DNA from: Limimaricola cinnabarinus | Lineage (GTDB): Bacteria > Pseudomonadota > Alphaproteobacteria > Rhodobacterales > Rhodobacteraceae | Direction of reading: 5' to 3' | NCBI RefSeq assembly: GCF_002723615.1 | Contig: NZ_KZ304964.1 | Location: 1 to 64,000, forward strand | DNA length: 64,000 nt | Shown here: positions 19,073 to 40,396 of the stretch, in pieces | How positions within the stretch are numbered: position 1 is the first letter of the stretch | How the letters are laid out: each line of letters begins with the position of its first letter | The notes under the pieces: generated by a model | Databases searched by the model: none | Told to the model about the DNA's origin: nothing | Seen by the model: the letters and a program-made list of their open reading frames with translations, nothing else | Position numbers and translations under genes: made by a program

Positions 19073-19322
19073 CGTCGTGCCTTGGGGGGTCCGTTGCGCG
19101 GGACTGTGCCTTCGCATCAAGCGCCGGTCGACCTCGAATCGTGCCGCGCGTCGCGGTGGCGGCGGCGTGGGGTGGTGCGATGCCGCCCTGGGGCGGCGAT
19201 TCCGGCTTTGATCGCGGCGCAGGCAGCCTGATCGAAATTCCCTCGCTCGGAGAGCGCGGCGGTACCGGGTTCGCCCGCAAGGCCCGCCGGAGGGCCGCTT
19301 CGTTCAGGATATTTCCCGGTAG

Positions 19323-22665: not shown

Positions 22666-23591
22666 TGGCGGTTCTACTTGTTGCGGACATCACCAAGGGC
22701 GAATTGAACCGCGACGCCACGGCCAAGGCCGTGAGCGCGGTGCGGGATCTGGGCGCTGTGACGCTGCTTTGCGCCGGGGCCACGCCCGAGGCGGCAGCCG
22801 TGGCCGCGAAGATCGACGGCATCGCCCGCGTGCTGCTGGCCGAGGGCGCGCCATACGAGCGCCAGATGGCCGAGCCGCTGGCGGCACTGATCGCGGTGCT
22901 CGCGGGTGATTTCGAGCACATTGCCGCGCCCGCCACCTCCGGCGCCAAGAACGCGATGCCGCGTGTCGCGGGGCTTCTCGACGTGATGGTGATCCCCGAC
23001 GTGCTCAAGGTGATCGACGCCGAAACTTTCGAGCGGCCGATCTACGCCGGCAATGCGATCCAGACCGTGCGTTCCAAGGACGCGACCAAGGTGCTGACCA
23101 TCCGCACCACCGGCTTCGACGCCGCGGGCGATGGCGGCGCGGCGCAGGTCGAGACCCTGGCCGAGGTCGCCGATCCCGGCCTCGCGCGCTGGCTCTCAGA
23201 CGAGGTCTCGAAGAGCGACCGGCTGGAGCTGACCTCGGCGGGCCGCGTGGTCTCGGGTGGGCGCGGCGTCGGTTCGGAGGAGAACTTCGCGCTGGTCGAG
23301 GGGCTGGCCGACAGTCTCGGCGCCGCCGTCGGTGCGAGCCGCGCCGCCGTCGATGCGGGCTATGCGCCGAACGACTGGCAGGTCGGGCAGACCGGCAAGG
23401 TCGTCGCCCCCGATCTCTACGTCGCGGTGGGCATCTCGGGCGCGATCCAGCACCTCGCGGGGATGAAGGACAGCAAGATCATCGTCGCCATCAACAAGGA
23501 CGAGGAGGCGCCGATCTTCCAGGTCGCCGATTACGGCCTCGTCGGCGATCTGTTCGATCTCGTGCCCGAGCTGACGGGGGCGCTGAAATGA
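22665..23591 (+). CDS. etfA: Electron transfer flavoprotein alpha subunit, 308 aa
   Basis: The C-terminal FAD-binding domain shows [18 protein letters not shown] and [20 protein letters not shown], then [20 protein letters not shown] and [10 protein letters not shown], all classic EtfA sequence. Length is normal. It overlaps etfB by one base (TGATG) and its stop overlaps the folD start. EtfAB shuttles the two electrons released by the demethylase into the respiratory chain. Confidence 0.94.
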
Positions 23592-24499
23592 ACATCCGCG
23601 AGACCACGCTTAGCGCCCGCATCGACGGCAAGGCCTTTGCCGCCGATGTGCGGACCCATGTCGCCGATCACGTGGCGGAGCTGAACTCCGAGCATGGGAT
23701 CACGCCCGGCCTCGCGGTGGTGCTGGTGGGCGAGGACCCGGCCTCGGAGGTCTATGTGCGCAACAAGGCGCGCCAGACCCGCGAGACCGGCATGACCGGC
23801 TTCGAGCACAAGCTTTCGGCCGAGACGAGCCAGGCGGATCTGCTGGCGCTGCTGGCGCGGCTCAACGCCGATCCCGCCGTGCACGGCATCCTCGTGCAGC
23901 TGCCGCTGCCGCGCCATATCGACACAGAGGCGGTGCTGGCGGCGATCGACCCGGCCAAGGACGTCGACGGCTTCCACATCTCCAACGTGGGCCTTCTGGG
24001 CACCGGGCAGAAGGCGCTGGTCCCCTGCACGCCGCTGGGTTGTCTGATGATGCTGCGCGACCGGCTGGGCAGCCTCAAGGGGCTGAACGCGGTGGTGGTC
24101 GGGCGCTCGAACATCGTCGGCCGCCCCATGGCGCAGCTTCTTTTGCGCGATGATTGCACCGTGACCGTGGCGCACCGCCATTCGCGCGATCTCGCCGAGA
24201 TCTGCCGCGGCGCGGACATCCTCGTAGTCGCCGTCGGCCGGCCCGGGATGATCAAGGGCGACTGGATCAAGCCCGGGGCCACGGTGATCGACGTCGGCAT
24301 CAACCGGATCGAGGCCGAGGGCGGCAAGACCCGGCTGGTTGGCGATGTCGATTTCGACGCGGCGGCGCGGGTCGCGGGCGCGATCACGCCCGTGCCCGGC
24401 GGCGTCGGCCCGATGACCATCGCCTGCCTGTTGTCCAACACGCTGACCGCCTGCTGCCGCGCGCACGGCCTGCCCGAGCCGGACGGCCTGACCGCCTGA
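23588..24499 (+). CDS. folD: Methylene-THF dehydrogenase/methenyl-THF cyclohydrolase, 303 aa
   Basis: Conserved FolD motifs are present: [20 protein letters not shown] with the YxxxK catalytic pair (Tyr and Lys in YVRNK), VDGFH, and [18 protein letters not shown] in the Rossmann NADP site, ending [13 protein letters not shown]. It converts methylene-THF to methenyl- and then formyl-THF. Together with purU it routes the demethylase product to formate. This is most likely a second, pathway-specific folD. It overlaps etfA by four bases (ATGA). Confidence 0.95.
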
Positions 24500-24539
24500 C
24501 CGCCCGATCGCCCCCCCCAATTCCCGGAGAGAGACGCAC

Positions 24540-25424
24540 ATGTCCAAGTTCTGCCTGACCGTGACCTGCCAATCGGCCCGCGGCGTCGTCGCGGCGATCG
24601 CCGGCTACCTGTCCGAACAGGGCTGCAACATCACCGACAGCTCGCAATTCGACGACCCTGAGACCGGCGGCTTCTTCATGCGCGTGAGCTTCGTGTCGGA
24701 GACCGGCGCGACGCGCGATGAGCTCGAACAGGGCTTTGCCAAGGCCGCGCAGGGCTTTGGCATGGAGTACATGTTCCACGACGAGGCCCGCAAGATGCGG
24801 GTCGTCGTCATGGTCTCGCGCTTTGGCCATTGCCTAAACGACCTGCTCTATCGCTGGAAGATCGGCGCGCTGCCGATCGACATCGTCGCGGTGGTCTCGA
24901 ACCACATGGACTACCAGAAACTCGTGGTGAACCACGACATCCCGTTCCACTGCATCAAGGTGACCAAGGCCAACAAGCCCGACGCCGAGGCGCGGATCAT
25001 GGCGGTGGTGGAGGAGGCCGAGGCCGATCTGATCGTGCTGGCGCGCTACATGCAGATCCTGTCCGACGACATGTGCCGAGCGATGTCGGGGCGGATCATC
25101 AACATCCACCACTCCTTCCTGCCCAGCTTCAAGGGCGCCAATCCCTACAAGCAGGCGTTCCAGCGCGGGGTGAAGCTGATCGGCGCGACCTCGCATTACG
25201 TCACCGCCGATCTCGACGAAGGCCCGATCATCGAGCAGGACATCGTCCGCGTCACCCATGCGCAATCGGCCGAGGATTACGTTTCGCTTGGTCGCGACGT
25301 CGAGGCGCAGGTTCTGGCCCGCGCGGTCCATTCCCATGCCAACCGCCGGGTCTTTCTTAACGGCGACAAGACCGTCGTCTTTCCGGCCTCCCCTGGCTCC
25401 TATTGCAGCGAGCGGATGGGCTGA
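24540..25424 (+). CDS. purU: Formyltetrahydrofolate deformylase, 294 aa
   Basis: An ACT domain (about residues 1-80) precedes a formyltransferase-like hydrolase domain containing SRFGHCLNDLLYRWKIGALP and INIHHSFLPSFKGANPY with the catalytic His, ending in GATSHYVTADLDEGPIIEQD and its catalytic Asp. A GGAGAGA site precedes the ATG. It hydrolyses 10-formyl-THF to formate and THF, recycling free folate for the demethylase. The pair folD-purU next to a THF-dependent demethylase is a known arrangement in methylated-amine catabolism. Confidence 0.94.
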   Translation: MSKFCLTVTCQSARGVVAAIAGYLSEQGCNITDSSQFDDPETGGFFMRVSFVSETGATRDELEQGFAKAAQGFGMEYMFHDEARKMRVVVMVSRFGHCLNDLLYRWKIGALPIDIVAVVSNHMDYQKLVVNHDIPFHCIKVTKANKPDAEARIMAVVEEAEADLIVLARYMQILSDDMCRAMSGRIINIHHSFLPSFKGANPYKQAFQRGVKLIGATSHYVTADLDEGPIIEQDIVRVTHAQSAEDYVSLGRDVEAQVLARAVHSHANRRVFLNGDKTVVFPASPGSYCSERMG

Positions 25425-25544: not shown

Positions 25545-26540
25545 ATGACACGTATTTTCAGCCTGCCGATCCTCGCCCTATCCGGCCTCATCACCGGGAC
25601 CGCCGCCTCCGCGCAGGACGGGCTCACAGTCGCCTATTTCACCGAATGGCCGATGCCGTTCCAATACGCCAAGGCCGAAGGGATCTATGACGAGACGCTC
25701 GGCTTGCCGGTGAACTGGGTCCGCTTCGATTCCGGCACCGCCATGTCCGCCGCCATGGCCGCGGGCAACGTGCAGATCGCGATCAGCCAGGGCGTGCTGC
25801 CCTTCATCGGCGCGGCCTCGGCGGGCCAGGACCTGCGCATTGTCGACATCGCCGCCTCCTATGCCGATAACGAGAACTGCGTCGTCGCCGCCGCGCTTGA
25901 GATCGACGCCGAGAACGCGGCGGAGCTTGAGGGCACGCGCGTCGCCGTGCCGGTCGGCACCGGGGCGCAATACACCTTTTTGCAGCTGATGGAGCATCTG
26001 GAGGTCGACACCTCGACCATGTCGATCGTCGACATGGCCCCCGCCGAGGGCGCCGCCGCCTTCTCGCGCGGCGATGTCGACATGGCCTGCGGCTGGGGCG
26101 GCGCGCTGGGGCGGATGATGGAATACGGCAACGTGCTGCTGACCGGCGCCGAAAAGGAGGAGGTCGGCATTCTCTCCTTCGACCTGACCACCACCATGGC
26201 CGGGTTCGCCACCTCCCAGCCCGGGCTGCTTGAAGAGTTCCTCGCCGTCACCGCCGAGATGAACGCCAAGTGGAACGCGGGCGAGGACCGGGCCGAAATG
26301 CTGCCGGTCATCGCACAAGACGCCGGCATGGAAGACGCCACCGCGGGCGAGGTGATCGACGATTTCACCTTCATCCCGGTCGATGCGCTGCTGTCCGAAA
26401 AGTGGCTGGGCGGGCGCGTCGGCAGCTATATCGACGGTGCTGCGGCCTTCTTCCACGAGCATGGCTCCGTGCCTACGCTTCTGCCCAGCTACGGCGATCT
26501 GATCATCACGGCGCCGCTGCAGGACATCGCCACCAACTGA
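25545..26540 (+). CDS. NitT/TauT-family ABC transporter binding protein, 331 aa
   Basis: A signal peptide (MTRIFSLPILALSGLITG, cleavage near ASAQD) precedes a type 2 periplasmic-binding fold. FTEWPMPFQYAKAEGIYDET, WVRFDSGTAMSAAMAAGNVQ and VAVPVGTGAQYTFLQ resemble TauA and SsuA-type proteins. It captures an organic anion for the ATPase and permease that follow. The ligand could be a sulfonate such as taurine or an N-methylated analogue, given the demethylase genes upstream. Conserved TauA ligand positions cannot be verified by eye. It is followed by a strong hairpin and then the ATPase gene. Confidence 0.82.
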   Translation: MTRIFSLPILALSGLITGTAASAQDGLTVAYFTEWPMPFQYAKAEGIYDETLGLPVNWVRFDSGTAMSAAMAAGNVQIAISQGVLPFIGAASAGQDLRIVDIAASYADNENCVVAAALEIDAENAAELEGTRVAVPVGTGAQYTFLQLMEHLEVDTSTMSIVDMAPAEGAAAFSRGDVDMACGWGGALGRMMEYGNVLLTGAEKEEVGILSFDLTTTMAGFATSQPGLLEEFLAVTAEMNAKWNAGEDRAEMLPVIAQDAGMEDATAGEVIDDFTFIPVDALLSEKWLGGRVGSYIDGAAAFFHEHGSVPTLLPSYGDLIITAPLQDIATN

Positions 26541-26546
26541 ACCGGC

Positions 26547-26566
26547 GGAGGCGCGAAAGCGCCTCC
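26547..26566 (+). promoter_or_regulatory. Intercistronic hairpin after the binding-protein gene
   Basis: GGAGGCGC (26547-26554) pairs with GCGCCTCC (26559-26566) around a GAAA tetraloop, six bases past the stop codon. This is a very stable GNRA-loop hairpin without a clean T-run, typical of differential expression of a binding protein over its membrane partners. Confidence 0.6.
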
Positions 26567-26600
26567 CTCCCCCCTGCCTCACCGACAAGGGAATGCCCGG

Positions 26601-27407
26601 ATGTCCGGATTGACGCTGAACAATATCTCCATGCGCTTCGATTTGCCCAATGGAAGCCACGTGCAGGCCCTGCAGGACGTGTCCTTGCATCTCGCCAAGG
26701 GCGAGCTGCTGTCGGTCCTCGGGCCGTCGGGCTGCGGCAAGACCACGCTTCTCAACATCGTGGCGGGCTTTCTCGCTCCCACCGCGGGCGAGATCACGCT
26801 CAATGGCCACGCCGTGCGCGGCCCCGATGCCGAGCGCGGCATGGTGTTTCAGGAAGGCGCGCTGTTCGAATGGATGAACGTGCGCGACAACGTCTCCTTC
26901 GGGCCGCGCATGGCCGGACGCCGCAAAGCCGACTACCTGCCCGAGGTCGACCGCCTGCTCGAGATCGTCGGGCTCAAGGATTTCCGCGACAAGGCGATCT
27001 ACGAGCTGTCGGGCGGCATGCAGCAGCGCGTGGCGCTGGCCCGCTGCCTTGCCAACGACCCGGACGTGATCTTGATGGACGAGCCTTTGGGCGCGCTCGA
27101 CGCGCTCACCCGCGAAAAGATGCAGGCGCTGGTCCTCAAGCTGTGGAAGGAGACAGGCAAGACCGTGATGCTCATCACCCATTCGGTCGAGGAGGCGCTG
27201 CTTCTGGGCGAGCGGCTGATCGTCATGGCCCCGCGCCCGGGCCGCATCCACAAGGAATACCGCCTGCCCTTTGCCGAGCTGGGGGCCGGGATGGACCTGA
27301 GGGAGGTGAAGAAACATCCTGATTTCGGCACGACGCGGGAGGATATCCTATCGATGATCTGGAACATGGAAGAAGAAATCATGGGTCACATGGAGCCCGC
27401 ATCATGA
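26601..27407 (+). CDS. NitT/TauT-family ABC transporter ATPase, 268 aa
   Basis: Walker A is GPSGCGKTT (about residues 47-55), the signature [14 protein letters not shown] (about 140), Walker [16 protein letters not shown] (about 160) and a switch His in [13 protein letters not shown]. The pattern GGMQQRV and the C-terminal MAPRPGRIHKEYRLPF are standard for SsuB/TauB/NrtD. It energises import with the neighbouring binding protein and permease, and its stop overlaps the permease start. Confidence 0.9.
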   Translation: MSGLTLNNISMRFDLPNGSHVQALQDVSLHLAKGELLSVLGPSGCGKTTLLNIVAGFLAPTAGEITLNGHAVRGPDAERGMVFQEGALFEWMNVRDNVSFGPRMAGRRKADYLPEVDRLLEIVGLKDFRDKAIYELSGGMQQRVALARCLANDPDVILMDEPLGALDALTREKMQALVLKLWKETGKTVMLITHSVEEALLLGERLIVMAPRPGRIHKEYRLPFAELGAGMDLREVKKHPDFGTTREDILSMIWNMEEEIMGHMEPAS

Positions 27408-28636
27408 CCGGTATCGCGATCCTCCTCGTTTACGTGCTGGCCTTCGTGCTGGCCGCCGCCGCCGCCGGGCTGCTGCGGCGCGGCCGCGCCCGGCGCGCCG
27501 ATTTCAGCAGCCTCAAGACCGTGACCTTCGGCGACGAGAGCGCGATCCGCCCCGATCGCCTCGCCTCCATCGCCTCGGTCGTGGTGATCTTTCTGCTCTG
27601 GGGCGCCTTCACCGGCTCCAAGCTGGTGCCGCTGCACGTGTCCGGCCCTTTCGCGGGCGAGACCTCCTTCACCTACCAGTCCGAAGGCACGGGCGGGCAG
27701 CTCAGCGACGGCCGGGTGCGGATCACCGTCGGCCCGGACGGCACGCTTCCCGCCGGGGCCGAGACCTCCGACGATGTCGCCGTCGCGGTGCAGAGCGGGC
27801 GCAACAAGCTGATCCAGCTGCCGGGCGACGCGCGCGTGGTCTCTGTCAACGGCACCGAGATCGCGCCGGGCGGGGCTGTGCCGGTCGAAGACGGCACCGT
27901 GTCGATGACCTCCAAGGGCACGCTGAGCTTCGCCGCCGAAAGGGGCCTGCAGATGGAGCCGATCTGGCTGCCCTCGCCCGAAGCCGTGGTCGGCCGCTTC
28001 ATCGAGATCATGGCCAATGGCTACCAGAACTATTCGCTGTGGGAGCATATCGGCGCTTCGCTGCTGCGGGTGCTCGCGGGCTTTACCCTAGGCGCGCTGG
28101 TGGGGATTCCGCTGGGCTACGCGATGGGCCTGTCGGGCTGGTTTCGCGGATGGTTCGACCCGATCGTGGAGTTCATGCGCCCGGTGCCGCCGCTGGCGCT
28201 GATCCCGCTCGTCATCATCTGGTTCGGGATCTGGGAGACCGGCAAGGTGGTGCTGCTGTTCCTCGCCGCATTGTGGGTGATGGCCATCGCGGCGCGGGCG
28301 GGGGTGTCTGGCGTCAGGATCTCCAAGATCCACGCCGCCTATTCGCTCGGCGCGTCGAAATGGCAGATCCTGCGCCACGTGATCGTGCCCAACTCCCTGC
28401 CCGAGATCTTCACCGGGGCGCGGGTGGCGATGGGCGTGTGCTGGGGCACCGTCGTCGCCGCAGAACTGGTCGCAGCACAGATGGGCGCCGGCATGATGAT
28501 CATCGCCGCCGCGAAGTTCCAGCTGACCGACATCGTGATGATGGGCATCATCCTGATCGGCCTGATCGGCTTTGGCATCGACCTGCTGATGCGCCAGGCC
28601 GAGACCCGGCTGGTGCCCTGGAAAGGTCGCAGCTAG
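27404..28636 (+). CDS. NitT/TauT-family ABC permease with an unusual N-terminal periplasmic insertion, 410 aa
   Basis: The C-terminal 230 residues are a standard SsuC/TauC permease: LLRVLAGFTLGALVGIPLGY, FMRPVPPLALIPLVIIWFGI and the EAA loop ISKIHAAYSLGASKWQILRH. The N-terminal part is odd. A first hydrophobic segment and a second at about residues 55-70 (SVVVIFLLWGAFTGS) are followed by a soluble, beta-rich stretch of about 100 residues, with no cysteines, between helices. That makes the protein about 140 residues longer than common TauC. The insert could assist ligand delivery. It is the last gene of the operon and a bidirectional terminator follows. Confidence 0.83.
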   Translation: MTGIAILLVYVLAFVLAAAAAGLLRRGRARRADFSSLKTVTFGDESAIRPDRLASIASVVVIFLLWGAFTGSKLVPLHVSGPFAGETSFTYQSEGTGGQLSDGRVRITVGPDGTLPAGAETSDDVAVAVQSGRNKLIQLPGDARVVSVNGTEIAPGGAVPVEDGTVSMTSKGTLSFAAERGLQMEPIWLPSPEAVVGRFIEIMANGYQNYSLWEHIGASLLRVLAGFTLGALVGIPLGYAMGLSGWFRGWFDPIVEFMRPVPPLALIPLVIIWFGIWETGKVVLLFLAALWVMAIAARAGVSGVRISKIHAAYSLGASKWQILRHVIVPNSLPEIFTGARVAMGVCWGTVVAAELVAAQMGAGMMIIAAAKFQLTDIVMMGIILIGLIGFGIDLLMRQAETRLVPWKGRS

Positions 28637-29414: not shown

Positions 29415-30308
29415 CTATCCGCCGACCAATTCGGTCCAGACCGCCTCCTCGGAGCTGCTTTTGGACCCGGCGAGCCGCATCGCGGTGATCGCCAGATCGC
29501 AGCTTGGCAGATCGTCCGAAAAATCGATCAGCCCGCCATCGGCGATCCGGTCGCGGGCGAGGCTTTCGGGGATCCAGGCGGTGCCGATGCCGACCTGCGC
29601 CATTTCCTGCGCCGCCAGCGTCAGCGCCGTTTCCACACGCTGCACCGCCTGCAGCGGCGGCGGCAGCTTTGGCAGGATCAGCAGGTTCATCACCTGCCCC
29701 AGAAACACCGCGTCGGGGTAGGAGACGATCGGCAAGAGCCCCATCGCCCGGTCGCGCAGATGATCCGCCCGCCGCGCCGCCGCATGAACCGGGATCAGCC
29801 GGTCCTGTCCGAGCTCGAACGTCTCGAGGTAGTCGGCCTCGACCTCGGGCGCGATCCCCTCGATCCGGTAGACCAGCGCGATATCGGCCTTGCGCGCGAG
29901 AAGCTGGCCGTAGCAGTCGTCGAAATTGGCCGAGCGCAGGCGGATCGTGATCGAGGCGTCGCGTGCCAGCACGCCCTGCAGCAGCCGCGGCGTGCGCGAG
30001 GTGGTCAGCGCGTGCTGGCTGGCCAGCACCACGTGGCTGTCAGCTATCTGGCTGCCGCTGCGCAGATCGGCGACTAGCTGGCGCAGCGTGCGGATGATCT
30101 GAAGAATTCGGTCGCGCTGTGCCTCGGTGGTGCGTTGCAGCTGCACCGGCTTGCGGCTGCGGTCGAACAACTCGACCCCGACATGGTCCTCGATCTGCCG
30201 GATGCGGCGAGAAAAGGCAGATTGCGTTAAAAGGCGGCGTTCGGCGGCCTCCGAGAAGGATCCGGTCTCCGCCACGGCGATCAGATCTTCCAACCATTCC
30301 AAGCGCAT
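29415..30308 (-). CDS. LysR-family regulator of the sulfonate operon, 297 aa
   Basis: Residues 1-60 form the winged helix-turn-helix (MRLEWLEDLIAVAETGSFSE, AERRLLTQSAFSRRIRQIE), and residues 90-290 a LysR effector domain. The ATG at 30308 is preferred because GGGGGACCCTTGC precedes it; longer in-frame starts lack such a site. It diverges from the cuyA-like gene with 117 bp between starts and an inverted repeat in between. Control of cysteate/sulfonate catabolic genes by a divergent LysR regulator is common. I infer that a sulfonate or intermediate is the coinducer. Confidence 0.85.
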   Translation of the reverse strand: MRLEWLEDLIAVAETGSFSEAAERRLLTQSAFSRRIRQIEDHVGVELFDRSRKPVQLQRTTEAQRDRILQIIRTLRQLVADLRSGSQIADSHVVLASQHALTTSRTPRLLQGVLARDASITIRLRSANFDDCYGQLLARKADIALVYRIEGIAPEVEADYLETFELGQDRLIPVHAAARRADHLRDRAMGLLPIVSYPDAVFLGQVMNLLILPKLPPPLQAVQRVETALTLAAQEMAQVGIGTAWIPESLARDRIADGGLIDFSDDLPSCDLAITAMRLAGSKSSSEEAVWTELVGG

Positions 30309-30425: not shown

Positions 30426-31451
30426 ATGCATCTGGCCCGGTTTCCCCGCGTCCATCTCGCCCACCTGCCCACCCCGCTGGAGCGGCTCGACCGCCTGAGC
30501 GCCGAGCTCGGCGGACCCGAGATCTGGATCAAGCGCGACGACTGCACCGGCCTGTCGAGCGGCGGCAACAAGACCCGCAAGCTCGAATTCCTGATGGCCG
30601 AGGCGCAGGCCATGGGCGCCGAGATGGTGATGACCCAAGGCGCCACCCAGTCGAACCACGCGCGCCAGACGGCGGCCTTCGCCTCCAAGCTCGGGATGCG
30701 CTGCCACCTGCTGCTCGAGGACCGCACCGGCTCCAAGGACCACAACTACAACCGCAACGGCAACGTGCTGCTCGACCATCTGCACGGCGCCACCACCGAG
30801 ACCCGCGGCCCCGATCTCGACATGCATGCCGAGATGGAAGCGGTGGCCGAGAATTTCCGCAAGGACGGCGCCAAGGTCTACACCATCCCCGGCGGCGGCT
30901 CGAACGCCACCGGCGCGCTCGGCTATGTCAACTGCGCCTTCGAGCTGGTGGGCCAGGCCAATGACGCCGGCATGGTGATCGACCACATCGTCACCGCCAC
31001 CGGCTCCGCCGGCACCCAGGCCGGGCTGATCACCGGGCTCAAGGCGATCAACGCGCAGATCCCGCTTCTGGGCATCGGCGTGCGTGCGCCGCGGGAAAAG
31101 CAGGAGGAGAACGTCTACAAGCTGGCCCGCCTGACCGCCGAAAAGCTCGGCTGCGAGGGCATCGTCGCTCGCGAGGACGTCGTCGCCAATTGCGACTATG
31201 TCGGCGAAGGCTACGGCATCCCGCGCGAGGACACGATCGAGGCGATCCGCATGTTCGCCGAGCTCGAAGGCATCCTGCTCGACCCGGTCTATTCCGGCAA
31301 GGGCGCGGCCGGGCTGATCGACCAGATCCGCAAGGGCCGCTTCAAGAAGGGCGAGCGGGTGGTGTTCCTGCACACCGGCGGGGCGGCGGCGCTGTTCGGC
31401 TACGACGCGGTGTTCGAGCGCGCCCCCGGCGACAAGATGGCGGCGGAGTAA
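30426..31451 (+). CDS. cuyA: L-cysteate sulfo-lyase (CuyA) / D-cysteine desulfhydrase family, 341 aa
   Basis: It opens [20 protein letters not shown] and carries the PLP-binding lysine in [12 protein letters not shown] (Lys49 by position), then [14 protein letters not shown] and the phosphate loop [11 protein letters not shown]. These match the CuyA branch of the PLP-fold ACC-deaminase/D-cysteine desulfhydrase family known from Ruegeria and Paracoccus. CuyA cleaves L-cysteate to pyruvate, ammonium and sulfite. Neighbours strongly support the sulfonate role: tauABC, an HpsN-type dehydrogenase and a sulfate/sulfite exporter are in the same operon. D-cysteine desulfhydrase is the main alternative. 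The next gene starts four bases after its stop. Confidence 0.85.
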
Positions 31452-31455
31452 ACCC

Positions 31456-32667
31456 ATGGCCGAGACGCGTTTCACCGGCAGCTTCACCCAGCAGGAGCCG
31501 ATCCCGGAGGAGGGCATCTCGGCGGCGCTGGAGCTGCTTCGCACGGGGCGGCTGCACCGCTACAACACCATGCCGGGCGAGACGTCGCTCGCCGCCCGGC
31601 TGGAGGCGGCCTATGCCGCGTGGCAGGGCGCGCGCTACTGTCTCGCGCTGGCCTCGGGCGGGCAGGCGATGCAGATCGCGCTGCGCGCCTGCGGCGTGCG
31701 GCCCGGCGACAAGGTTCTCTCGAACGCCTTCACCCTCGCCCCCGTGCCCGGCGCCGTGGCCGCCGTGGGTGCCGAGACGGTGCTGGTCGAGATCACCGAG
31801 GATCTGGTGATCGACCTCGACGATCTCGCCGTCAAGGCCCGAGCTTCCGGCGCGCGGCATCTCTTGTTGTCGAACATGCGCGGCCATCTGTGCGACATGG
31901 ATCGGCTGATGCGGGTTGCCGAAGGCTGCGGCCTCACCGTGATCGAGGATTGCGCCCACACCATGGGGGCCAAGTGGAACGGCCGCCGCTCGGGCAATTT
32001 CGGCGCCATGGGCTGCTTCAGCACCCAGACCTACAAGCACATGAATTCCGGCGAAGGCGGGTTTCTCACCACCGACGACCCCGAGCTGATGGCCCGCGCG
32101 ATCATCATGTCGGGCTCCTACATGCTCTACGAGCGCCACGGTGCCGCGCCGCCGCCCGAGGTGTTCGAGAGGATCCGGCTGGAGACGCCGAACATGTCGG
32201 CGCGGATGGACAATCTGCGCGCCGCGATCCTGCTGCCGCAGCTCGACCGGCTCGACGATGCCATCGCCCGCTGGAACGCGCTGCACGACCGGATGGCCGA
32301 GCGGCTCGCCGCCCTGCCCGGCGTGGCGCTGCCAGAGCGGCCCGCGCCCGAGTTCCATGTCGGCTCCTCGATCCAGTTCCGCCTGCCGGGGCTGGGGGCG
32401 GAAGGGGCGCGGCAGTTACTGTCCGAGACGGCGGCGCGCGGGGTCGAGCTGAAATGGTTCGGCGCGGACGAGCCCATGGGCTTCACCTCGAACCACGCGA
32501 GCTGGCGCTACCTGCGCGCGCAATCCCTGCCCCGTACCGACGCGATCCTCGCGGAGCTGTTCGACATGCGGTTGCCGCTGACCTTCGCCCCGTCCGATTG
32601 CGACGCGATCGCCCAGCATCTCGGCGCGGCCCTCGCAGCGCTGCGCAGCCCGGAGGGCGCGGCATGA
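31456..32667 (+). CDS. DegT/DnrJ/EryC1-family PLP aminotransferase, 403 aa
   Basis: Family features are VIEDCAHTMGAKWNG with the PLP-binding Asp165 and FSTQTYKHMNSGEGGFLTT with the Schiff-base Lys194. Substrate loops in the middle (NMSARMDNLRAAIL) are also conserved. The length is close to the family norm. Most members act on sugars, but the position between a cysteate lyase and an amino-acid racemase in a sulfonate operon points to an amino or keto sulfonate substrate, for example interconversion of cysteate and sulfopyruvate. That is inference; no known sulfonate transaminase is of this family to my knowledge. It is coupled to the next gene by an ATGA overlap. Confidence 0.8.
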   Translation: MAETRFTGSFTQQEPIPEEGISAALELLRTGRLHRYNTMPGETSLAARLEAAYAAWQGARYCLALASGGQAMQIALRACGVRPGDKVLSNAFTLAPVPGAVAAVGAETVLVEITEDLVIDLDDLAVKARASGARHLLLSNMRGHLCDMDRLMRVAEGCGLTVIEDCAHTMGAKWNGRRSGNFGAMGCFSTQTYKHMNSGEGGFLTTDDPELMARAIIMSGSYMLYERHGAAPPPEVFERIRLETPNMSARMDNLRAAILLPQLDRLDDAIARWNALHDRMAERLAALPGVALPERPAPEFHVGSSIQFRLPGLGAEGARQLLSETAARGVELKWFGADEPMGFTSNHASWRYLRAQSLPRTDAILAELFDMRLPLTFAPSDCDAIAQHLGAALAALRSPEGAA

Positions 32668-33383
32668 GCCCGAAGCGGATCGGCATATTGGGGGGCATGG
32701 GGCCCGAGGCGACGGTGCTGCTGATGCAGAGACTGATCGCCGCGACACCGGCGCGCGACGACGCGGACCACATCCCGCTTCTCGTCGACATGAACCCGCA
32801 GGTGCCCTCGCGCATCGCCCGGCTGATCGAGGGACGCGGCGAAGATCCCGGCCCGGTGCTCGCCGCGATGGCGCGCGGGCTGGAGGCGGGCGGCGCGACC
32901 GCCCTGGCCATGCCCTGCAACACCGCGCATCACTACGCGCCGGAGATCCGCGCCGCCGTCTCGGTCCCCTTCATCGACATGATCGCCCTCTCGGTCGGTC
33001 ACGCGGCGCGGCTGGCCGGGCCAAGCGGCAAGGTGGGGCTTCTGGGTTCGCCCGCGCTGCGCCGGATCGGGATCTTCGACCGCGCTTGCGCCGAGGCCGG
33101 GCTGATCCTGCTGCACCCGGCGGACGAGGAGGCGCTCCTGGCCGCGATCCGCGCGATCAAGGCGCACGGTCCGGACGAGGAGAGCCGGGCGGCGCTGCAC
33201 GCAGCCTCGGCCGACCTCGCGGAACGTGGGGCCGCGCTGCAGCTTGTCGCCTGCACCGAGTTTTCGCTCATCGCCGAGGCGCTCGTGCCCGGGGCCGAAG
33301 GCATCGATACGCTCGACCGCCTGGTTGATGGCATCCGCGCCGCCGCGACGGGAGCGCGAAACAAGGCCGAAACCGCGGCCTGA
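32664..33383 (+). CDS. Aspartate/glutamate racemase family protein, 239 aa
   Basis: The sequence opens MSPKRIGILGGMGPEATVLL, with the two catalytic cysteines in MPCNTAHHY (Cys85) and VACTEFSLI (Cys197), as in PLP-independent Asp/Glu racemases. Both are intact. The enzyme inverts the alpha carbon of an acidic amino acid by two-base catalysis. Cysteate is a sulfonate analogue of aspartate, so a D/L-cysteate racemase that feeds the L-specific CuyA two genes upstream is an attractive reading. It overlaps the aminotransferase by four bases and precedes tauA. Confidence 0.82.
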   Translation: MSPKRIGILGGMGPEATVLLMQRLIAATPARDDADHIPLLVDMNPQVPSRIARLIEGRGEDPGPVLAAMARGLEAGGATALAMPCNTAHHYAPEIRAAVSVPFIDMIALSVGHAARLAGPSGKVGLLGSPALRRIGIFDRACAEAGLILLHPADEEALLAAIRAIKAHGPDEESRAALHAASADLAERGAALQLVACTEFSLIAEALVPGAEGIDTLDRLVDGIRAAATGARNKAETAA

Positions 33384-33438
33384 CACCCATGCAGAACGGC
33401 GCGGGACAGCGTCGATGCATCCAACAGAGGAGTAGACC

Positions 33439-34422
33439 ATGAAGAAGACGATGCGCGTGGCGCTTGCACTCACCACCAGTCTCACCGCCGGATCGGCGCT
33501 GGCCGAGACGGTCACCATCGGCCATTTCGGCAACCCCACCCCGATGCAGGTCGCCCGCGCGGAAGGTAAGTTCGAAGAGGCCACCGGTTGGGACATCGAA
33601 TGGCGCAAGTTCGCCTCCGGCTCCGAGGTGATCGCCGCCATGGCCTCGGGCGACATCAAGCTCGCCGAACTCGGTTCCTCGCCCCTGGCCATCGCCACCA
33701 GCCAGGGTGTCGATCTCGAGATGTTCATGCTGGCGCAGGTGCTGGGCTCGGCCGAGAGCCTGATCGCCCGCGACGGTAGCGAGATCGAGACGCTTGAGGA
33801 TCTCTCGGGCAAGCGGGTCGCGGTGCCGGTCGGCTCGACCGCGCATTTCTCGCTGATGGGCGCGCTCGATCACGCCGGGGTCGAAGCCTCGGATCTGACG
33901 CTTCTCAACATGCCGCCCGACCAGATCGCCGCCGCTTGGGAGCAGGGCGCGATCGACGCGGCCTTTATCTGGCAGCCCGTGCAGAACCAGATCGCCGAGA
34001 CCGGCACCCGGCTTGCCACCTCGGCCGATACCGCCGAATGGGGCTATCCGACCTTCGACGGCTGGGTGGTGAACGCCGCGTTCGCCGCCGAGAACGCCGA
34101 GGCCGTGACCGCCTTCGCCAAGACCATGGACGAGGCCAACGCCGCCTATCTCGCCGATCCCGCCGCCTGGACGCCCGAAAGCGAGCCGGTGCAGACCATC
34201 GCCGCCGAGACCGGCGCCGATGCCGCGCAGATCCCCACCATCCTCGAAGGCTTCACCTTCGTGCCGCTCTCCGAGCAGCTGGGCGAGACCTGGCTCGGCG
34301 GCGCGCCCGAGACGATGCGTTCGACCGCGCAGTTCCTCAAGGATGCGGGCCGCATCGACCGGGTGGCCGAGGATTACTCGGGTTTCGTCAATACCGAGAT
34401 CGGCACCGCCGCCACGCAATGA
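33439..34422 (+). CDS. tauA: Taurine ABC transporter binding protein (TauA-like), 327 aa
   Basis: A signal peptide ([18 protein letters not shown] up to ALA) is followed by a TauA-type fold: [60 protein letters not shown] and [17 protein letters not shown] align by eye with E. coli TauA. A GAGGAG site precedes the ATG. It binds a small aliphatic sulfonate in the periplasm. In this operon the ligand could be taurine, cysteate, DHPS or cysteinolic acid. A GC hairpin follows before tauB. Confidence 0.87.
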
Positions 34423-34433
34423 CGCCCCGCCTT

Positions 34434-34454
34434 CCGGCCCCCGCGCGGGGCCGG
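34434..34454 (+). promoter_or_regulatory. Intercistronic hairpin after tauA
   Basis: CCGGCCCC (34434-34441) pairs with GGGGCCGG (34447-34454) around CGCGC, 11 bases past the tauA stop. There is no T-run. It resembles the hairpins after the two other binding-protein genes in the window and probably tunes relative expression of the transporter subunits. Confidence 0.55.
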
Positions 34455-34484
34455 GACGCTCAGACCCCGACGAGGAGTGGTCCA

Positions 34485-35273
34485 ATGGGACTCAACATCA
34501 ATTCCGCCTCCGTGGTGTTTCCCGCGGCCGAGGGAAGGCCGCCGGTCGAGGCGCTGCGCGGCATCGACCTGGCCATCGCCGAGGGCGATTTCGTGGTGGC
34601 GCTCGGCGCCTCCGGCTGCGGCAAATCCACGCTTCTGAACCTGATCGCGGGCTTTCTCGCCCCCAGCTCGGGCGAGATCCTGCTCGACGGCAACCCGGTC
34701 ACCGGGCCGGGCGCCGACCGCTCGGTCGTGTTCCAGAAACACGCTCTGCTGCCTTGGCTCAACGTGATCGAGAACGTCGCCTTCGGGCTCAAGATGCAGG
34801 GCGTGGCCGAGGCCAAGCGCCGCGCCGTCGCCGAAGAGTTCGTGAAGCTTCTGGGTCTCGACGGCTTCCAGAAATCCCCGGTCTACCGGCTTTCGGGCGG
34901 CATGCAGCAGCGCGTCGGCATCGCCCGCGCGCTGACCTGCGACCCCAAGGTGCTCTTGATGGACGAGCCCTTGGGCGCGCTTGATGCGCTGACCCGCGAA
35001 AAGGCACAGGAGCTGATCCTCAGGATCTGGAACGATACCGGCAAGTCGGTCTTCTTCATTACCCACAGCGTCGAGGAGGCGCTGTTCATGGGGACCAAGC
35101 TGATCGTGATGTCGCCCCGCCCGGGCCGCATCTCGCACCGCTTCGACCTGCCGTTTTCGCGCCGCGTGCTCGCGGGCGAGCCGGCGCGGCAGGTCAAGGC
35201 CTCCCCCGAATTCATCCGGCTGCGCGAGGAGGTGCTCGGCATCATCTTCGCCGACGAGGAGGAAGCGGCATGA
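34485..35273 (+). CDS. tauB: Taurine/sulfonate ABC transporter ATPase (TauB-like), 262 aa
   Basis: Walker [10 protein letters not shown] (about residues 42-50), signature [14 protein letters not shown], Walker [16 protein letters not shown] and switch [13 protein letters not shown] are all present, with the [16 protein letters not shown] tail of the TauB/SsuB group. The start at 34485 follows GAGGAGTGG. It powers sulfonate import with TauA and TauC. The stop overlaps the permease start by four bases. Confidence 0.9.
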
Positions 35274-36163
35274 TCGAGACCGTGAAACACCGCCCCCACG
35301 TCGCCGAAAAGGCCCGCATCAACCCGCGCAGCGGCGTCTTCGCCTGGCTCGCGCGCAGCCGTCCCACCAAGCCCGGCGAAACCTATGGCGTGCCGGGTCA
35401 AGGCGACACGATGTGGCTTTCGGTGGCCTCCATCCTGTTTTTGCTCTTCGTCTGGTGGGCGGTGACCGCTCTGGGGCTGGTCAAGCCGCTCTTCGTGCCG
35501 AGCCCGCAGGCTATCGTCGCCAAGTTCGTCGATGTCTGGCAGAACGGCTTCACCAACACCTCCTTCCTCGAACATGCCGCGGTCTCGACCGCCCGCGTCT
35601 TCGGCGCCTTCCTTCTGGCCTGCGCAATCGGCATTCCGCTCGGCCTCGCCATGGGGATGAGCCCGGTGATGCGCGGGCTGTTCGATCCGCCGATCGAGTT
35701 CTACCGCCCGATCCCGCCGCTGGCCTACCTGCCGCTGATGATCATCTGGTTCGGCATCGGCGAGACCTCCAAGGTGCTGCTGATCTTCCTGTCGGTCTTC
35801 GCGCCCGTGGCGCTTGGCGCCCGCGCCGGCGTCCGCTCCGCCGCGATCGAGCAGATCCACGCCGCCTACAGCTTCGGTGCCTCGCGCTGGCAGGTGCTGC
35901 GCCACGTGATCCTGCCCTCGGCCCTGCCCGAGATCCTGACCGCGATGCGCATCGGCGTCGGCTTCGGCTGGACCACGCTGGTCGCCGCCGAGATGGTCGC
36001 CGCGACAAAGGGGCTTGGCTACATGGTGCTCTCGGCCAGCCAGTTCCTGCAGACCCCCACCGTCATCATGGGGATCATCGTGATCGCCGCGATCGCCTAT
36101 GCCTTCGACCTGCTGATGCGCTGGATCGAACGCAAGGTCGTCCCCTGGAAAGGCAAGATGTGA
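35270..36163 (+). CDS. tauC: Taurine/sulfonate ABC transporter permease (TauC-like), 297 aa
   Basis: Six hydrophobic segments are seen. Conserved TauC sequence includes [20 protein letters not shown] and the EAA-type loop [20 protein letters not shown], with the carboxy-terminal [12 protein letters not shown]. The first 45 residues are cytoplasmic and basic. The size is standard, unlike the longer permease in the neighbouring operon. It completes the TauABC importer and is followed after 8 bp by the HpsN/HisD-type gene. Confidence 0.9.
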
Positions 36164-36171
36164 GAGACGAC

Positions 36172-37485
36172 ATGACCGTGACCCATCTCAAGGCCGCGAA
36201 ACACCGCCCCGAAAGCGACCAGGCCGACACCCGCGCCACCGTCGAGGCCATGCTGGCCGAGATCCGCGCGGGCGGCGAGGCCCGCGTCGCCAGCTATGCC
36301 AGCGAGCTCGATCGTTGGGACGGCCCGCTGCTGGTGGACCACGACACCCGCCGCGCCGCCGCCGCCCGGCTGCCCGAAAGCCTCAAGGAGGACATCCGCT
36401 TCGCCCATGCCAATATCCGCCGTTTCGCCGAGGCGCAGATGCGGACGGTGCAGGGCTGCGAGGTCGAAATCCTGCCCGGGCTCATCGCCGGGCAGCGGCA
36501 GATCCCGGTTTCGGCGGCGGGCTGCTACGTGCCCGGCGGGCGCTACAGCCACATCGCCTCGGCGCTGATGACCATCACCACCGCCAAGGTGGCGGGGGTG
36601 GGCCACATCACCGCCTGCTCGCCGCCGCGACCGGGCGAAGGCATCCCGGCGGCGATCCTCTACGCCATGGATCTGTGCGGCGCCGACGCGATCCTGAACC
36701 TGGGCGGCGTGCAGGGCGTGGCGGCGATGGCGGAGGGGCTCTACGGCCTGCCGCGCGTCGACATTCTCGTCGGCCCCGGCAACCAATACGTGGCCGAGGC
36801 CAAGCGCATCCTCTTCGGCGAGATCGGCATCGACATGTTCGCCGGCCCCACCGACAGCATGGTGCTGGCCGACGCGACCGCCGATCCGGAGATCGTCGCC
36901 GTCGATCTCGTCAGCCAGGCCGAGCATGGCTGGAACTCGCCGGTCTGGCTCGCCACCACCGACCGCGCCCTGGCCGAAAAGGTGATGCAGATCGTACCCG
37001 GGCTGATCGACGCGTTGCCCGAGCCCAACGCCTCGAGCGCCCGCGCCGCATGGGCCGATTTCGCAGAGGTGATACTCTGCGAGGATCGCGAGGCGATGGC
37101 GCGCGTCGCCGATGACTATGCGCCGGAGCACTTGCATGTGCAGGCCGCGGATCTCGACTGGTGGCTCGAGCGGCTGCGCGCCTATGGCTCGCTGTTCCTC
37201 GGCGAGGAGACCACCGTCGCCTATGGCGACAAGGCCTCGGGTCCGAACCACGTGCTGCCGACGTCGGGGGCGGCGCGCTACACCGGCGGGCTGTCGGTGC
37301 ACAAGTTCATGAAGACGGTGACCTGGCAGCGCGCCGACCGCGCCGCCTCGCGCCAACTTGGCGGGGCGACCGCCCGGATCAGCCGGGTCGAGGGGATGGA
37401 GGGCCATGCCCGCGCCGCTGACATCAGGCTCGAGCGCTACGCCGCGACCGAGCCCGGCCCCGCCGCTGCCAAAACGGCGGTCTGA
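36172..37485 (+). CDS. hpsN: HisD-fold alcohol dehydrogenase, HpsN (sulfopropanediol dehydrogenase) type, 437 aa
   Basis: The sequence is a HisD-family enzyme with zinc and catalytic features: YVPGGRYSHIASA (about 119-131), ILVGPGNQYVAEAK (198-211), VSQAEHGWNS (247-256; Gln249 and His252 at the HisD zinc-ligand positions), GDKASGPNHVLPTSGAARYT and MEGHARAAD near the C-terminus. The variant YVPGGRYSH and the sulfonate neighbourhood separate it from true histidinol dehydrogenase and match HpsN, which oxidises (R)-2,3-dihydroxypropane-1-sulfonate to sulfolactate in two NAD-linked steps. Because HisD enzymes act on an amino alcohol, the 2-amino analogue cysteinolic acid is also a plausible substrate here. 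It is the seventh gene from cuyA. Confidence 0.84.
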   Translation: MTVTHLKAAKHRPESDQADTRATVEAMLAEIRAGGEARVASYASELDRWDGPLLVDHDTRRAAAARLPESLKEDIRFAHANIRRFAEAQMRTVQGCEVEILPGLIAGQRQIPVSAAGCYVPGGRYSHIASALMTITTAKVAGVGHITACSPPRPGEGIPAAILYAMDLCGADAILNLGGVQGVAAMAEGLYGLPRVDILVGPGNQYVAEAKRILFGEIGIDMFAGPTDSMVLADATADPEIVAVDLVSQAEHGWNSPVWLATTDRALAEKVMQIVPGLIDALPEPNASSARAAWADFAEVILCEDREAMARVADDYAPEHLHVQAADLDWWLERLRAYGSLFLGEETTVAYGDKASGPNHVLPTSGAARYTGGLSVHKFMKTVTWQRADRAASRQLGGATARISRVEGMEGHARAADIRLERYAATEPGPAAAKTAV

Positions 37486-37540
37486 CCCGATCGGGCGTCC
37501 GGGCTAGGGCCCGGGCGCGCCCCGATCCGACGGAGACAAG

Positions 37541-38563
37541 ATGATGAACGTGACCGCCCTCGCGCCCGCAGCCCTGCGGGCGCCCGTCCTGCGCCTGCCT
37601 GTCCTGCTGCCCGGCTTCACCATTGCCGCCGTGGTTGCTATCGCAGCCAAGTTCATCTCCGAGCATTACGGCGCGCCCGCGATGCTGATGGCGCTGCTCT
37701 TGGGCATGACGTTGCAATTCCTGTCGCTCGAAGGGCGCTGTGTCGAGGGGATCGGTTTTACCGCCCGGCAGGTGCTGCGCTTTGGCGTGGCGCTCTTGGG
37801 GGCGCGGATTTCGGTGGAGCTGCTGCTTGATCTCGGGGCGGGGCTGATCGGGCTGATCGTGGCAGCGGTGGCCGCGACGATCCTGTTCGGCTTTCTAGCG
37901 GGCAAGGCCTTGGGCAAGGGCTGGCGCTTCGGCCTGCTCACAGGGGGCGCGGTGGCGATCTGCGGCGCCTCGGCCGCCATGGCCATCGCCGCGGTGCTGC
38001 CGCGCGATGAGAATTCGGAAACGGATCTGAGCTTCACCGTGCTCGGCGTCACCGTGCTGTCGACGATGGCGATGATCGCCTATCCGCTGCTGACCGGCTG
38101 GTTCGGCTTCGACACACGCACCACCGGCGTTTTCCTCGGCGCGACGATCCACGACGTGGCGCAGGTCGTCGGCGCGGGTTTTTCGATCTCGTCCGAGGCG
38201 GGCGAGACCGCCACGCTGGTCAAGCTCATTCGCGTCACCCTGCTCGCGCCCGTCGTGCTGCTGTTTTCGCTGGCGATCCGCGCCCGCGGCCTGGGCGACA
38301 GCGTCTCGGGCCGCAGGCCGCCGCTGATGCCGGGCTTCGTAGTCGGCTTTCTGGCGCTGGCGGCGCTGAACTCGCTGGGTCTCGTGCCCGCCGCGCTGGC
38401 GGATCTGCTGGCGGACGCATCGGGCTGGGCGCTGCTGATCGCCATTGCGGCGGTGGGGATGAAGACCTCGCTGGCCACGGTGCTTCAGGTGGGCGGAGCC
38501 GCCATCGCGCTCATTGCCGCCGAGACGGTCTTCCTCGCGGTGATCTTCGTCGCAGCCCTTTGA
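37541..38563 (+). CDS. YeiH/UPF0324-family putative sulfate/sulfite exporter, 340 aa
   Basis: About ten hydrophobic segments are seen. Family motifs include LLGMTLQFLSLEGRCVEGIG, GVALLGARISVELLLDLG and GGAVAICGASAAMAIAAVLP, as well as GATIHDVAQVVGAGFSISSE. The family (Pfam Cons_hypoth698) is annotated as a putative sulfate exporter and is commonly found with sulfonate degradation genes, where it would remove sulfite or sulfate released by desulfonation. A CGGAGACAAG site precedes the ATG. It lies 55 bp after the HpsN-type gene and closes the operon, which fits disposal of CuyA-derived sulfite. Confidence 0.84.
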   Translation: MMNVTALAPAALRAPVLRLPVLLPGFTIAAVVAIAAKFISEHYGAPAMLMALLLGMTLQFLSLEGRCVEGIGFTARQVLRFGVALLGARISVELLLDLGAGLIGLIVAAVAATILFGFLAGKALGKGWRFGLLTGGAVAICGASAAMAIAAVLPRDENSETDLSFTVLGVTVLSTMAMIAYPLLTGWFGFDTRTTGVFLGATIHDVAQVVGAGFSISSEAGETATLVKLIRVTLLAPVVLLFSLAIRARGLGDSVSGRRPPLMPGFVVGFLALAALNSLGLVPAALADLLADASGWALLIAIAAVGMKTSLATVLQVGGAAIALIAAETVFLAVIFVAAL

Positions 38564-40217: not shown

Positions 40218-40233
40218 TTACCACGGTAATCAC
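40214..40233. repeat. 20-bp palindrome, candidate parS or par operator, copy 1
   Basis: GTGATTACCACGGTAATCAC spans the rep stop codon and has 9-bp arms around AC. A nearly identical perfect palindrome occurs 163 bp downstream at 40377. Both are preceded by CGC. They bracket the short gap between rep and parA, the usual position of the partition promoter, so they are likely ParB- or ParA-binding sites or the centromere itself. Confidence 0.65.
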
Positions 40234-40376
40234 ACGGGCCCCACGGGCCAGCCGAGCGGCCGGACCGCAGCGCGAAGGCAACGGTTTCTCGCCCGGTGCC
40301 CATTCAATGCGAATATCTCGTCAGCTTGAGCTGACGCGGCTACATGAATGGCACAGGATCGAACTCGACATTTCGC

Positions 40377-40396
40377 GTGATTACCGCGGTAATCAC
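40377..40396. repeat. 20-bp palindrome, candidate parS or par operator, copy 2
   Basis: GTGATTACCGCGGTAATCAC is a perfect palindrome, differing from the copy at 40214 only at one central base. It lies 26 bp before the preferred parA start codon (40422), a position suited to autorepression by ParA or ParB. If translation began further upstream at 40344 the palindrome would be coding, giving VITAVIT, which is a reason to prefer the later start. Confidence 0.65.

Follow-up and report, generated by a model that had tools for sequence, protein, structure and literature searches.

An HpsN-like dehydrogenase in a cuyA-cuyB operon of Limimaricola cinnabarinus and its proposed role in cysteinolic acid catabolism

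Gene content of the operon

We analyzed a window of 64,000 nucleotides, the whole stretch taken from contig NZ_KZ304964.1 of Limimaricola cinnabarinus, and focused on an operon that may well serve the catabolism of the C3-sulfonate cysteinolic acid. The operon occupies positions 30426-38563 and consists of eight intact open reading frames (ORFs), cuyA to yeiH, all on the + strand. These ORFs were recovered again by a gene caller, which had been trained on relatives of the operon genes. Neighboring genes either overlap by 4 bp or are spaced by 4 to 62 bp. A gene for a LysR-type regulator (29415..30308, - strand), with HTH_1 and LysR_substrate domains and a start set by the gene caller, is oriented divergently from cuyA across an intergenic region of 117 bp, and a LysR gene is found at the same place in many relatives. 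A first-pass annotation of the window had named all of these genes. They are indeed present as intact ORFs where it had placed them, in an order that recurs in relatives; only the LysR gene lies outside the interval of 30426-38563 that it gave.

The first gene, cuyA (30426..31451, +), encodes a predicted pyridoxal phosphate (PLP)-dependent D-cysteate sulfo-lyase of 341 aa, which scored 550 bits against the NCBIfam model NF052482 (cut-off, 450) and has K49 as its PLP lysine according to the motif. It had initially been described as an L-cysteate sulfo-lyase, but NF052482 carries the name of D-cysteate sulfo-lyase. cuyB (32664..33383, +) encodes a predicted cysteate racemase of 239 aa (NF052483, 281 bits; cut-off, 190). 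Its residues C85 and C197, the two cysteines of the Asp/Glu racemase fold, were kept in 62 of 62 aligned sequences longer than 200 aa, in agreement with the earlier description of a two-cysteine Asp/Glu-type racemase. By score, the two proteins are members of the families "D-cysteate sulfo-lyase" and "cysteate racemase CuyB," with activities that are predicted, and these scores above the cut-offs support the proposal that the operon is a catabolic one for a C3-sulfonate and ends at cysteate.

Between cuyA and cuyB lies a gene for a DegT/DnrJ/EryC1 aminotransferase of 403 aa (31456..32667, +; PF01041, 189 bits), whose PLP lysine K194 was kept in 16 of 16 sequences. No NCBIfam model scored above its cut-off with this protein, and its nearest solved relatives were 3-amino-5-hydroxybenzoate synthase and aminocyclitol and sugar aminotransferases, all at 107 bits or less. 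An importer of the TauABC type follows cuyB. It comprises a taurine-type sulfonate-binding protein, TauA (33439..34422, +; TIGR01729, 316 bits; cut-off, 304), an ATPase, TauB (34485..35273, +), and a permease, TauC (35270..36163, +); the best models for the last two, PRK11248 at 336 bits and PRK10160 at 325 bits, stayed below their cut-offs of 357 and 342, respectively. Next comes the gene for a dehydrogenase of the HisD fold (36172..37485, +, with an alternative GTG start at 36160; PF00815), which we propose to be a cysteinolic acid dehydrogenase of an HpsN-like, cuy-linked clade. The last gene, yeiH (37541..38563, +), encodes an exporter, probably of sulfite or sulfate (PF03601, 214 bits; TIGR00698, 129 bits, below the cut-off of 233).

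The HpsN-like dehydrogenase and its gene neighborhoods

Among solved structures, the HisD-fold protein was closest to the (R)-2,3-dihydroxypropane-1-sulfonate (DHPS) dehydrogenase 8wwe (596 bits) and the sulfopropanediol 3-dehydrogenase 8v35 (507 bits), with true HisD proteins scoring at most 240 bits. In pairwise comparisons, it was 65% identical to HpsN of Ruegeria pomeroyi (RpHpsN), 55% to the Cupriavidus enzyme (CpHpsN), and 39% to HisD of its own genome, which is encoded by a separate gene on another contig. An identity as histidinol dehydrogenase was therefore rejected, on the grounds of the higher similarity to solved HpsN and of the separate HisD. The protein did pass the hisD model TIGR00069 (430 bits; cut-off, 244); the HpsN-like proteins of two other cuy clusters passed it as well, so that this model does not discriminate HisD.

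The active site was then compared using the numbering of CpHpsN. The HpsN-like protein holds H126, Q248, H251, H411, E318, H319, D352, and K353. Ser226 of CpHpsN is replaced by Thr here and in RpHpsN, and Thr is found at this position in both the cuy-linked group and the group linked to hpsO and hpsP (hpsOP). The zinc- and sulfonate-binding residues and the catalytic E318, H319, and D352 were kept in 43 or 44 of the 44 rows of the cuy clade. For the sulfonate residues H126 and K353, at which HisD differs, the counts were 44/44 and 43/44, respectively. Since the sulfonate-binding residues are kept, the substrate is very probably a C3-sulfonate, as judged from the sequence. Position 321, beside the catalytic E318 and H319, is His in 32 of 44 cuy-clade rows, T in 38 of 43 hpsOP rows, and E in CpHpsN. 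As candidates for substrate discrimination, sites 165, 321, and 336 lie outside the contacts named in the passages of PMC11382572 consulted.

In a tree of 94 rows, one change was enough to separate the cuy from the hpsOP labels. One side held every one of the 32 cuy rows (30 from cuyB loci, the protein of our operon, and that of L182, which has cuyA), together with 12 rows of neither context (Shimodaira-Hasegawa-like approximate likelihood ratio test [SH-aLRT] support, 87); two of the 32 HpsN-like genes at cuyB loci, those of L036 and L092, were not called as genes and appear in no tree. The other side contained 43 of 45 hpsOP rows and RpHpsN, the hpsOP rows L147 and L173 lying outside both sides. 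In a careful tree, the cuy side was supported at 97/72 and the main hpsOP side at 100/99; neither this tree nor the wide one included the HisD outgroup or L073, L176, L045, and L071, which form long branches. The wide tree was a quick one of 177 rows, in which some genomes are present twice (L088 and L228, for instance). Of its 80 cuy-linked rows, 77 formed a group free of hpsOP rows. The dehydrogenase of the operon was placed on the cuy side, outside the clade of RpHpsN and the hpsO/hpsP-linked enzymes. It had been described as an enzyme of the HpsN type, which holds as far as HpsN-likeness is concerned; by the tree, it belongs to a clade adjacent to HpsN and is not HpsN itself. Besides our own, 43 genomes are represented on the cuy side; an hpsP match at an E value of ≤1e-60 was lacking in 35 of them, and the 8 with such a match each also had an HpsN of the other side.

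A CuyB profile search of 295 genomes of the family found matches above the cut-off in 58 genomes, at 60 places. We examined 60 cuyB neighborhoods (59 of these places, besides our own locus, and one just below the cut-off), some of them cut by contig ends. cuyA was present in 50, an HpsN-like gene in 32, degT in 12, and degT together with an HpsN-like gene in 9. None of the 60 contained clusters (40% identity, with Pfam identities) corresponding to hpsO, hpsP, or the SlcD-like, ComC-like, or SuyB-like proteins, names that for the last three were given from family and context. By comparison, at 60 other HpsN loci, hand-picked among the matches listed, hpsO and hpsP clusters were each found in at least 42. 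Similarly, among 80 named loci of P0002 kin, 41 had cuyA and cuyB, 2 had cuyB only, 18 had hpsO and hpsP, 4 had one of these two, and 15 had neither type; no locus among the 80 had both the cuy and the hpsO/hpsP type.

The order LysR<cuyA-degT-cuyB-tauABC-hpsN-yeiH recurs in full in L046 and in Limimaricola soesokkakensis and L. cinnabarinus (L205 and L217), the HpsN-like proteins of the latter two species being 93% and 89% identical to ours, respectively. The same order minus yeiH or degT was found in many other relatives. The cluster is thus more than a chance arrangement. The cuy module also reaches Ancylobacter, Shinella, Ensifer, Mesorhizobium, and one Pseudomonas plasmid. At six loci (L157, L168, L169, L175, L176, and L177), a cuy-clade HpsN was seen without cuyA or cuyB alongside; in most of them, it was divergent from a LysR gene and enclosed by the flanks (MeaB and LepA, for example) that in relatives surround HpsN-cuyA-cuyB. 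In a survey of 72,556 plasmid records, cuyB was present on 15; in the 11 whose surroundings were viewed (H5, H7, H12, and H14 being left out), the set is annotated as histidinol dehydrogenase, D-cysteine desulfhydrase, and amino acid racemase. On the megaplasmid of R. pomeroyi DSS-3 (L285, 5453-8699), SPO_RS20085, whose product is 62% identical to CuyB, adjoins a gene similar to that of dimethylglycine dehydrogenase (DMGDH).

Proposed route and alternatives

The combination of an HpsN-type enzyme with CuyA and CuyB, without a sulfolactate dehydrogenase, is best explained by a substrate that is an amino-alcohol analogue of DHPS. With moderate confidence, we propose that the operon serves cysteinolic acid catabolism through the HpsN-like enzyme, CuyB, and CuyA, to pyruvate, ammonia, and sulfite. 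Cysteinolic acid (2-amino-3-hydroxypropane-1-sulfonate) would be imported by TauABC, and the HpsN-like enzyme, presumably zinc and NAD dependent, would oxidize its CH2OH group to a carboxylate in two steps. Provided that the stereochemistry of HpsN is retained, (R)-cysteinolic acid would give L-cysteate, because under the Cahn-Ingold-Prelog rules the change from CH2OH to COOH keeps the priority order and the product, (R)-cysteate, is L-cysteate. CuyB would then convert L-cysteate to D-cysteate, from which CuyA would release pyruvate, ammonia, and sulfite. The sulfur product would leave through YeiH, and LysR would control the operon.

The reactions of CuyB and CuyA and the mechanism and stereochemistry of HpsN are taken from the literature. 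Passages of PMC11382572, citing Denger et al. 2009 and Liu et al. 2024, describe CuyB as converting the L and D forms of cysteate into each other and CuyA as preferring the D form. The same passages report that HpsN prefers (R)-DHPS about a millionfold and that L-cysteate, which is (R)-cysteic acid, inhibits HpsN with a 50% inhibitory concentration of 2.4 mM and binds like (R)-sulfolactate. We count this binding of the proposed product in favor of the cysteinolic acid route. A structure of RpHpsN has also been reported (PMC11131964, cited from excerpts). Cysteinolic acid had already been put forward for this operon and remains a plausible substrate, for the reason given above; the part that we revise is the stereochemistry, which ran through D-cysteinolic acid and D-cysteate. 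The racemase in particular had been assigned the conversion of D- to L-cysteate, and the opposite direction is expected, as D-cysteate is the preferred substrate of CuyA in the excerpts of PMC11382572.

DegT is conserved, yet dispensable for the minimal route. The first-pass annotation had listed the aminotransferase without giving it a role, and the upstream demethylation module described below was not mentioned in it. The enzyme most likely aminates a related 2-keto C3-sulfonate, letting that compound join the same route: it would convert either sulfopyruvate to L-cysteate or 2-oxo-3-hydroxypropanesulfonate to cysteinolic acid. In L271 (Paracoccus sp. UBA889), degT-tauABC is divergent from hpsNOP-slcD. 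This context and that of L035 suggest a sulfopyruvate or L-cysteate aminotransferase; a role in aminating 2-oxo-3-hydroxypropanesulfonate, with cysteinolic acid as the product, would be in keeping with a DegT enzyme as well.

The rest of the genome was searched for the enzymes of a sulfolactate route. No match to hpsP was found in the genome at an E value of ≤1e-60, and with a single query each, the best genome matches were 33% for SlcD and 34% for ComC. SuyB had no genome match, a result that shows little because it comes from a single query with no positive control. Neither hpsO nor hpsP is present in the operon. With no close SlcD, ComC, SuyB, or hpsP relative, sulfolactate would be a dead end unless a distant dehydrogenase acts on it, and an alcohol oxidation that gives cysteate directly, as from cysteinolic acid, fits this gene content.

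Several observations weigh against this reading. The assignment of the substrate to the dehydrogenase comes from sequence and context. The first-shell active-site residues are identical in cuy-linked HpsNs and DHPS dehydrogenases, so that these residues do not choose between OH and NH2 at C2 and DHPS stays a possible substrate; CpHpsN, a proven DHPS enzyme, itself has several residues typical of the cuy clade. Two cuy operons on Paracoccus plasmids (L286 and L290), in which HpsN is next to cuyA-degT-cuyB, have an HpsN of the hpsOP side, and the cuy-linked HpsN of Pseudomonas sp. MPC6 groups with CpHpsN on the Cupriavidus side. With these three exceptions, a perfect split between the cuy and hpsOP types in the wider tree was rejected. 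On the quick tree, HpsN-type genes would seem to have entered cuyA-degT-cuyB clusters on three or more separate occasions, which we count in favor of the route; the exceptions also show that the clade is not a strict proxy for function. Also against the reading, 28 of the 60 cuyB loci, some of them truncated by contig ends, had no HpsN-like gene nearby; 9 of the 43 genomes of the cuy clade had no CuyB above the cut-off; and L035 has degT and no HpsN, which means that degT is not tied to the dehydrogenase. The own-genome absences of hpsP, SlcD, ComC, and SuyB rest on single queries. Some bacteria of the group contain cysteinolic acid, according to passages of the literature, so not every related gene need be catabolic. 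Finally, the old names of natural cysteinolic acid, as printed in the reference list of PMC8703288, presumably denote the (S) form by our own reasoning, and a natural (S) enantiomer would not fit an R-specific enzyme.

The leading alternative, which is an extension of the cysteinolic acid route and overlaps with it in probability, takes in the genes upstream of the operon. A LysR regulator gene (18026..19120, -; 64% identity to the LysR at the same place in Paracoccus seriniphilus) is followed by a gene for a DMGDH-like FAD/GcvT enzyme (19416..21836, +), which matched dimethylglycine dehydrogenase of the PDB over its full length (513 bits, residues 2-797) and could act in N-demethylation. Then come etfB, etfA, folD, and purU (21907..25424, +), possibly for electron and C1 disposal, a set that recurs in P. 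seriniphilus and Pseudomonas sp. MPC6. They are followed by the genes of a second importer of the TauABC type (25545..28636, +), whose binding protein is linked to the module in other genomes. All of these are possible partners of the operon. The whole island of 18-38.6 kb could thus be one pathway for mono- to trimethylated cysteinolic acid, perhaps a trimethyl betaine, a tentative view that we consider possible and do not favor. The substrate would enter through the second TauABC, and its methyl groups would be removed by the DMGDH-like enzyme (in relatives, also by enzymes of the MttB or GbcAB type) and burned to formate before oxidation to cysteate and desulfonation. The island would be either such a pathway or a gene set for two algal osmolytes.

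Linkage data speak for this extension. On a plasmid of P. seriniphilus (NZ_CP067131.1, 72098-91686; L289, 8099-27687), DMGDH-etfBA-folD-purU-tauA2B2C2-cuyA-degT-cuyB-hpsN is contiguous on one strand, beside GbcA- and GbcB-like genes that score below the model cut-offs, another TauA-type binding protein, and a TauE exporter. A plasmid of Pseudomonas sp. MPC6 (L304, NZ_CP034782.1, 238478-265886) carries, in one direction, cuyA-yeiH-hpsN-degT-TRAP-cuyB-DMGDH, a substrate-binding protein gene, and etfBA-purU-folD, along with a glycine-betaine-type transporter; a TauE exporter and a sulfite oxidase with cytochrome c are encoded near this cluster. In Leisingera, R. pomeroyi, Ruegeria sp. SCSIO 43209, and Mesorhizobium sp. 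131-2-1, DMGDH lies 0.1 to 17 kb from cuyB. The DMGDH gene was within 15 kb of cuyB or a cuy-clade hpsN in 6 of 29 genomes with both (5 of 28 with our genome excluded), against 0.28 expected if the genes were placed at random in a genome of 4 Mb; this count leaves out DMGDH matches at 42-45% identity. For the binding protein of the second importer, a distance to the module of no more than 15 kb was seen in 8 of 45 genomes (7 of 44 with our genome excluded), against 0.44 expected. Furthermore, a DMGDH orthologue (≥65% identity; 17 records with matches at ≤42% were left out) was present on 10 plasmid records, and 6 of these also carried cuyB, which is as rare in the whole survey as stated above.

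Set against this, DMGDH is widespread (93 of 295 genomes), and 17 of 20 DMGDH loci picked away from the module had none of the other genes of the window among the 17 tested; the remaining 3 had the importer, one of them also PurU. An MttB homologue (65-84% identity) was near DMGDH in 11 of these 20 loci, as for the use of glycine betaine. A cuy-specific DMGDH clade, which we had expected, was rejected by the tree, and 4 of 38 DMGDH rows adjoin HpsNs of the hpsO/hpsP type. No tauC2 was found in about 2 kb upstream of the LysR gene in L. soesokkakensis. Our genome has no close GbcA (112 bits; cut-off, 670), and its MttB is on another contig. No paper pairing cysteinolic acid with named methylated sulfonates was found, in a search that did not use the methylated compound's own name as a query.

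Just downstream of the operon, at 39273-41756, are genes for a helix-turn-helix protein and for one resembling RepA/ParA (TIGR03453, 124 bits, under the cut-off of 348). With such neighbors, the operon could be located on a plasmid or chromid. Farther away, positions 59142-59431 match the 5'ureB small RNA of Rfam (RF02514, 103 bits; gathering threshold, 40).

A route from DHPS that also ends at CuyA is unlikely. The HpsN-like enzyme would oxidize (R)-DHPS to (R)-sulfolactate, an unlinked dehydrogenase would form sulfopyruvate, and transamination by DegT would give L-cysteate for CuyB and CuyA. The identity to RpHpsN and the common first-shell residues agree with it, and such a route is described in PMC11382572, whose passages call the R. 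pomeroyi genes for the aminotransferase and the racemase CuyB unknown. DegT is found beside hpsNOP-slcD in L271, and the genome with cuyA-degT-cuyB in L035 (G083) has hpsNOP and a c15 (SlcD-like) gene elsewhere (L127). Against it stand the lack of close SlcD, ComC, hpsP, and SuyB relatives in our genome, where the ComDE/Xsc branch was not searched, the absence of the hpsO, hpsP, SlcD, ComC, and SuyB clusters from all 60 cuyB neighborhoods, and the second HpsN in the 8 cuy-clade genomes with hpsP.

Were (S)-cysteinolic acid the substrate, D-cysteate would be the first product and would go straight to CuyA, which would then need no racemase; CuyB would only bring in external L-cysteate. This agrees with the D specificity in the family name of CuyA and with our reading of the historic names, but it is quite unlikely, as CpHpsN favors R a millionfold in the passages of PMC11382572, the ligand residues are kept, and the linkage of HpsN-like genes to cuyB in 32 of 60 loci exceeds what a dispensable racemase would suggest. 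That the operon is a plain one for L-cysteate or a taurine-type compound, with the HisD-fold gene as a passenger or a histidinol dehydrogenase, is very unlikely: the 28 loci lacking a nearby HpsN and the TauA score with the taurine model point that way, but the 32 linked copies, the apparently separate recruitments, the separate HisD, and the kept sulfonate residues argue against it. Taurine degradation was rejected because the operon showed no enzymes that would support it; the genome was not searched for tpa and xsc. Biosynthesis of cysteinolic acid from cysteate by the enzyme in reverse, which might be brought to mind by reports that Pelagibaca bermudensis and R. pomeroyi contain the compound and that it serves as a head group of roseobacter lipids, is hardly credible, since CuyA of the same operon would destroy cysteate, importer and exporter genes fit use rather than synthesis, and HpsN enzymes are described as oxidizing.

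Meaning and comparison with known systems

Taken together, the data point to a real and conserved catabolic module, misannotated in the viewed records, for which cysteinolic acid would be the leading substrate candidate. To our knowledge, N-methylated cysteinolic acids have not been described as a class of algal sulfonate osmolytes, and, given the link to the demethylation module, a new class of methylated sulfonates may exist. Excerpts of PMC8703288 describe cysteinolic acid as a widespread and abundant algal solute that can exceed dimethylsulfoniopropionate in some phytoplankton and that bacteria may consume, and those of PMC11631085 credit roseobacters with making and metabolizing C3 sulfonates, including cysteinolic acid. 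The literature passages on the compound named no genes for its breakdown. The review of Burchill and Williams (2022), cited in PMC11631085, may propose a route, and we do not claim that the idea is unpublished. Our analysis provides a candidate enzyme and the clade to which it belongs, and it defines a set of marker genes, namely, an HpsN-like gene with cuyA/cuyB and without hpsO/hpsP. It also provides aminotransferase and racemase candidates for the R. pomeroyi gaps mentioned in the passages of PMC11382572, the racemase candidate being SPO_RS20085.

The operon can be compared with four known systems. With the hpsNOP operons for DHPS in R. pomeroyi and Cupriavidus (PMC11131964 and PMC11382572), it has in common the HpsN fold and the zinc, catalytic, and sulfonate-binding residues, whereas it lacks hpsO, hpsP, TRAP, LacI, SuyAB, and SlcD, and its enzyme is on the other side of the tree. 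HisD resembles the dehydrogenase in fold and in the two-step oxidation of a 2-amino alcohol, but the identity is only 39%, and H and K are found at the sulfonate positions where HisD has Y and Y. Both enzymes of the CuyB-CuyA cysteate pathway (passages of PMC11382572, citing Liu et al. 2024) have counterparts here above the NCBIfam cut-offs, to which the operon adds the HpsN-like dehydrogenase, the DegT aminotransferase, and the TauABC importer. Lastly, the demethylation of glycine betaine and dimethylglycine by DMGDH, GbcAB, and MttB is mirrored in the upstream module and in the partner genes of relatives, which here are joined to sulfonate genes and to importers of the sulfonate type.

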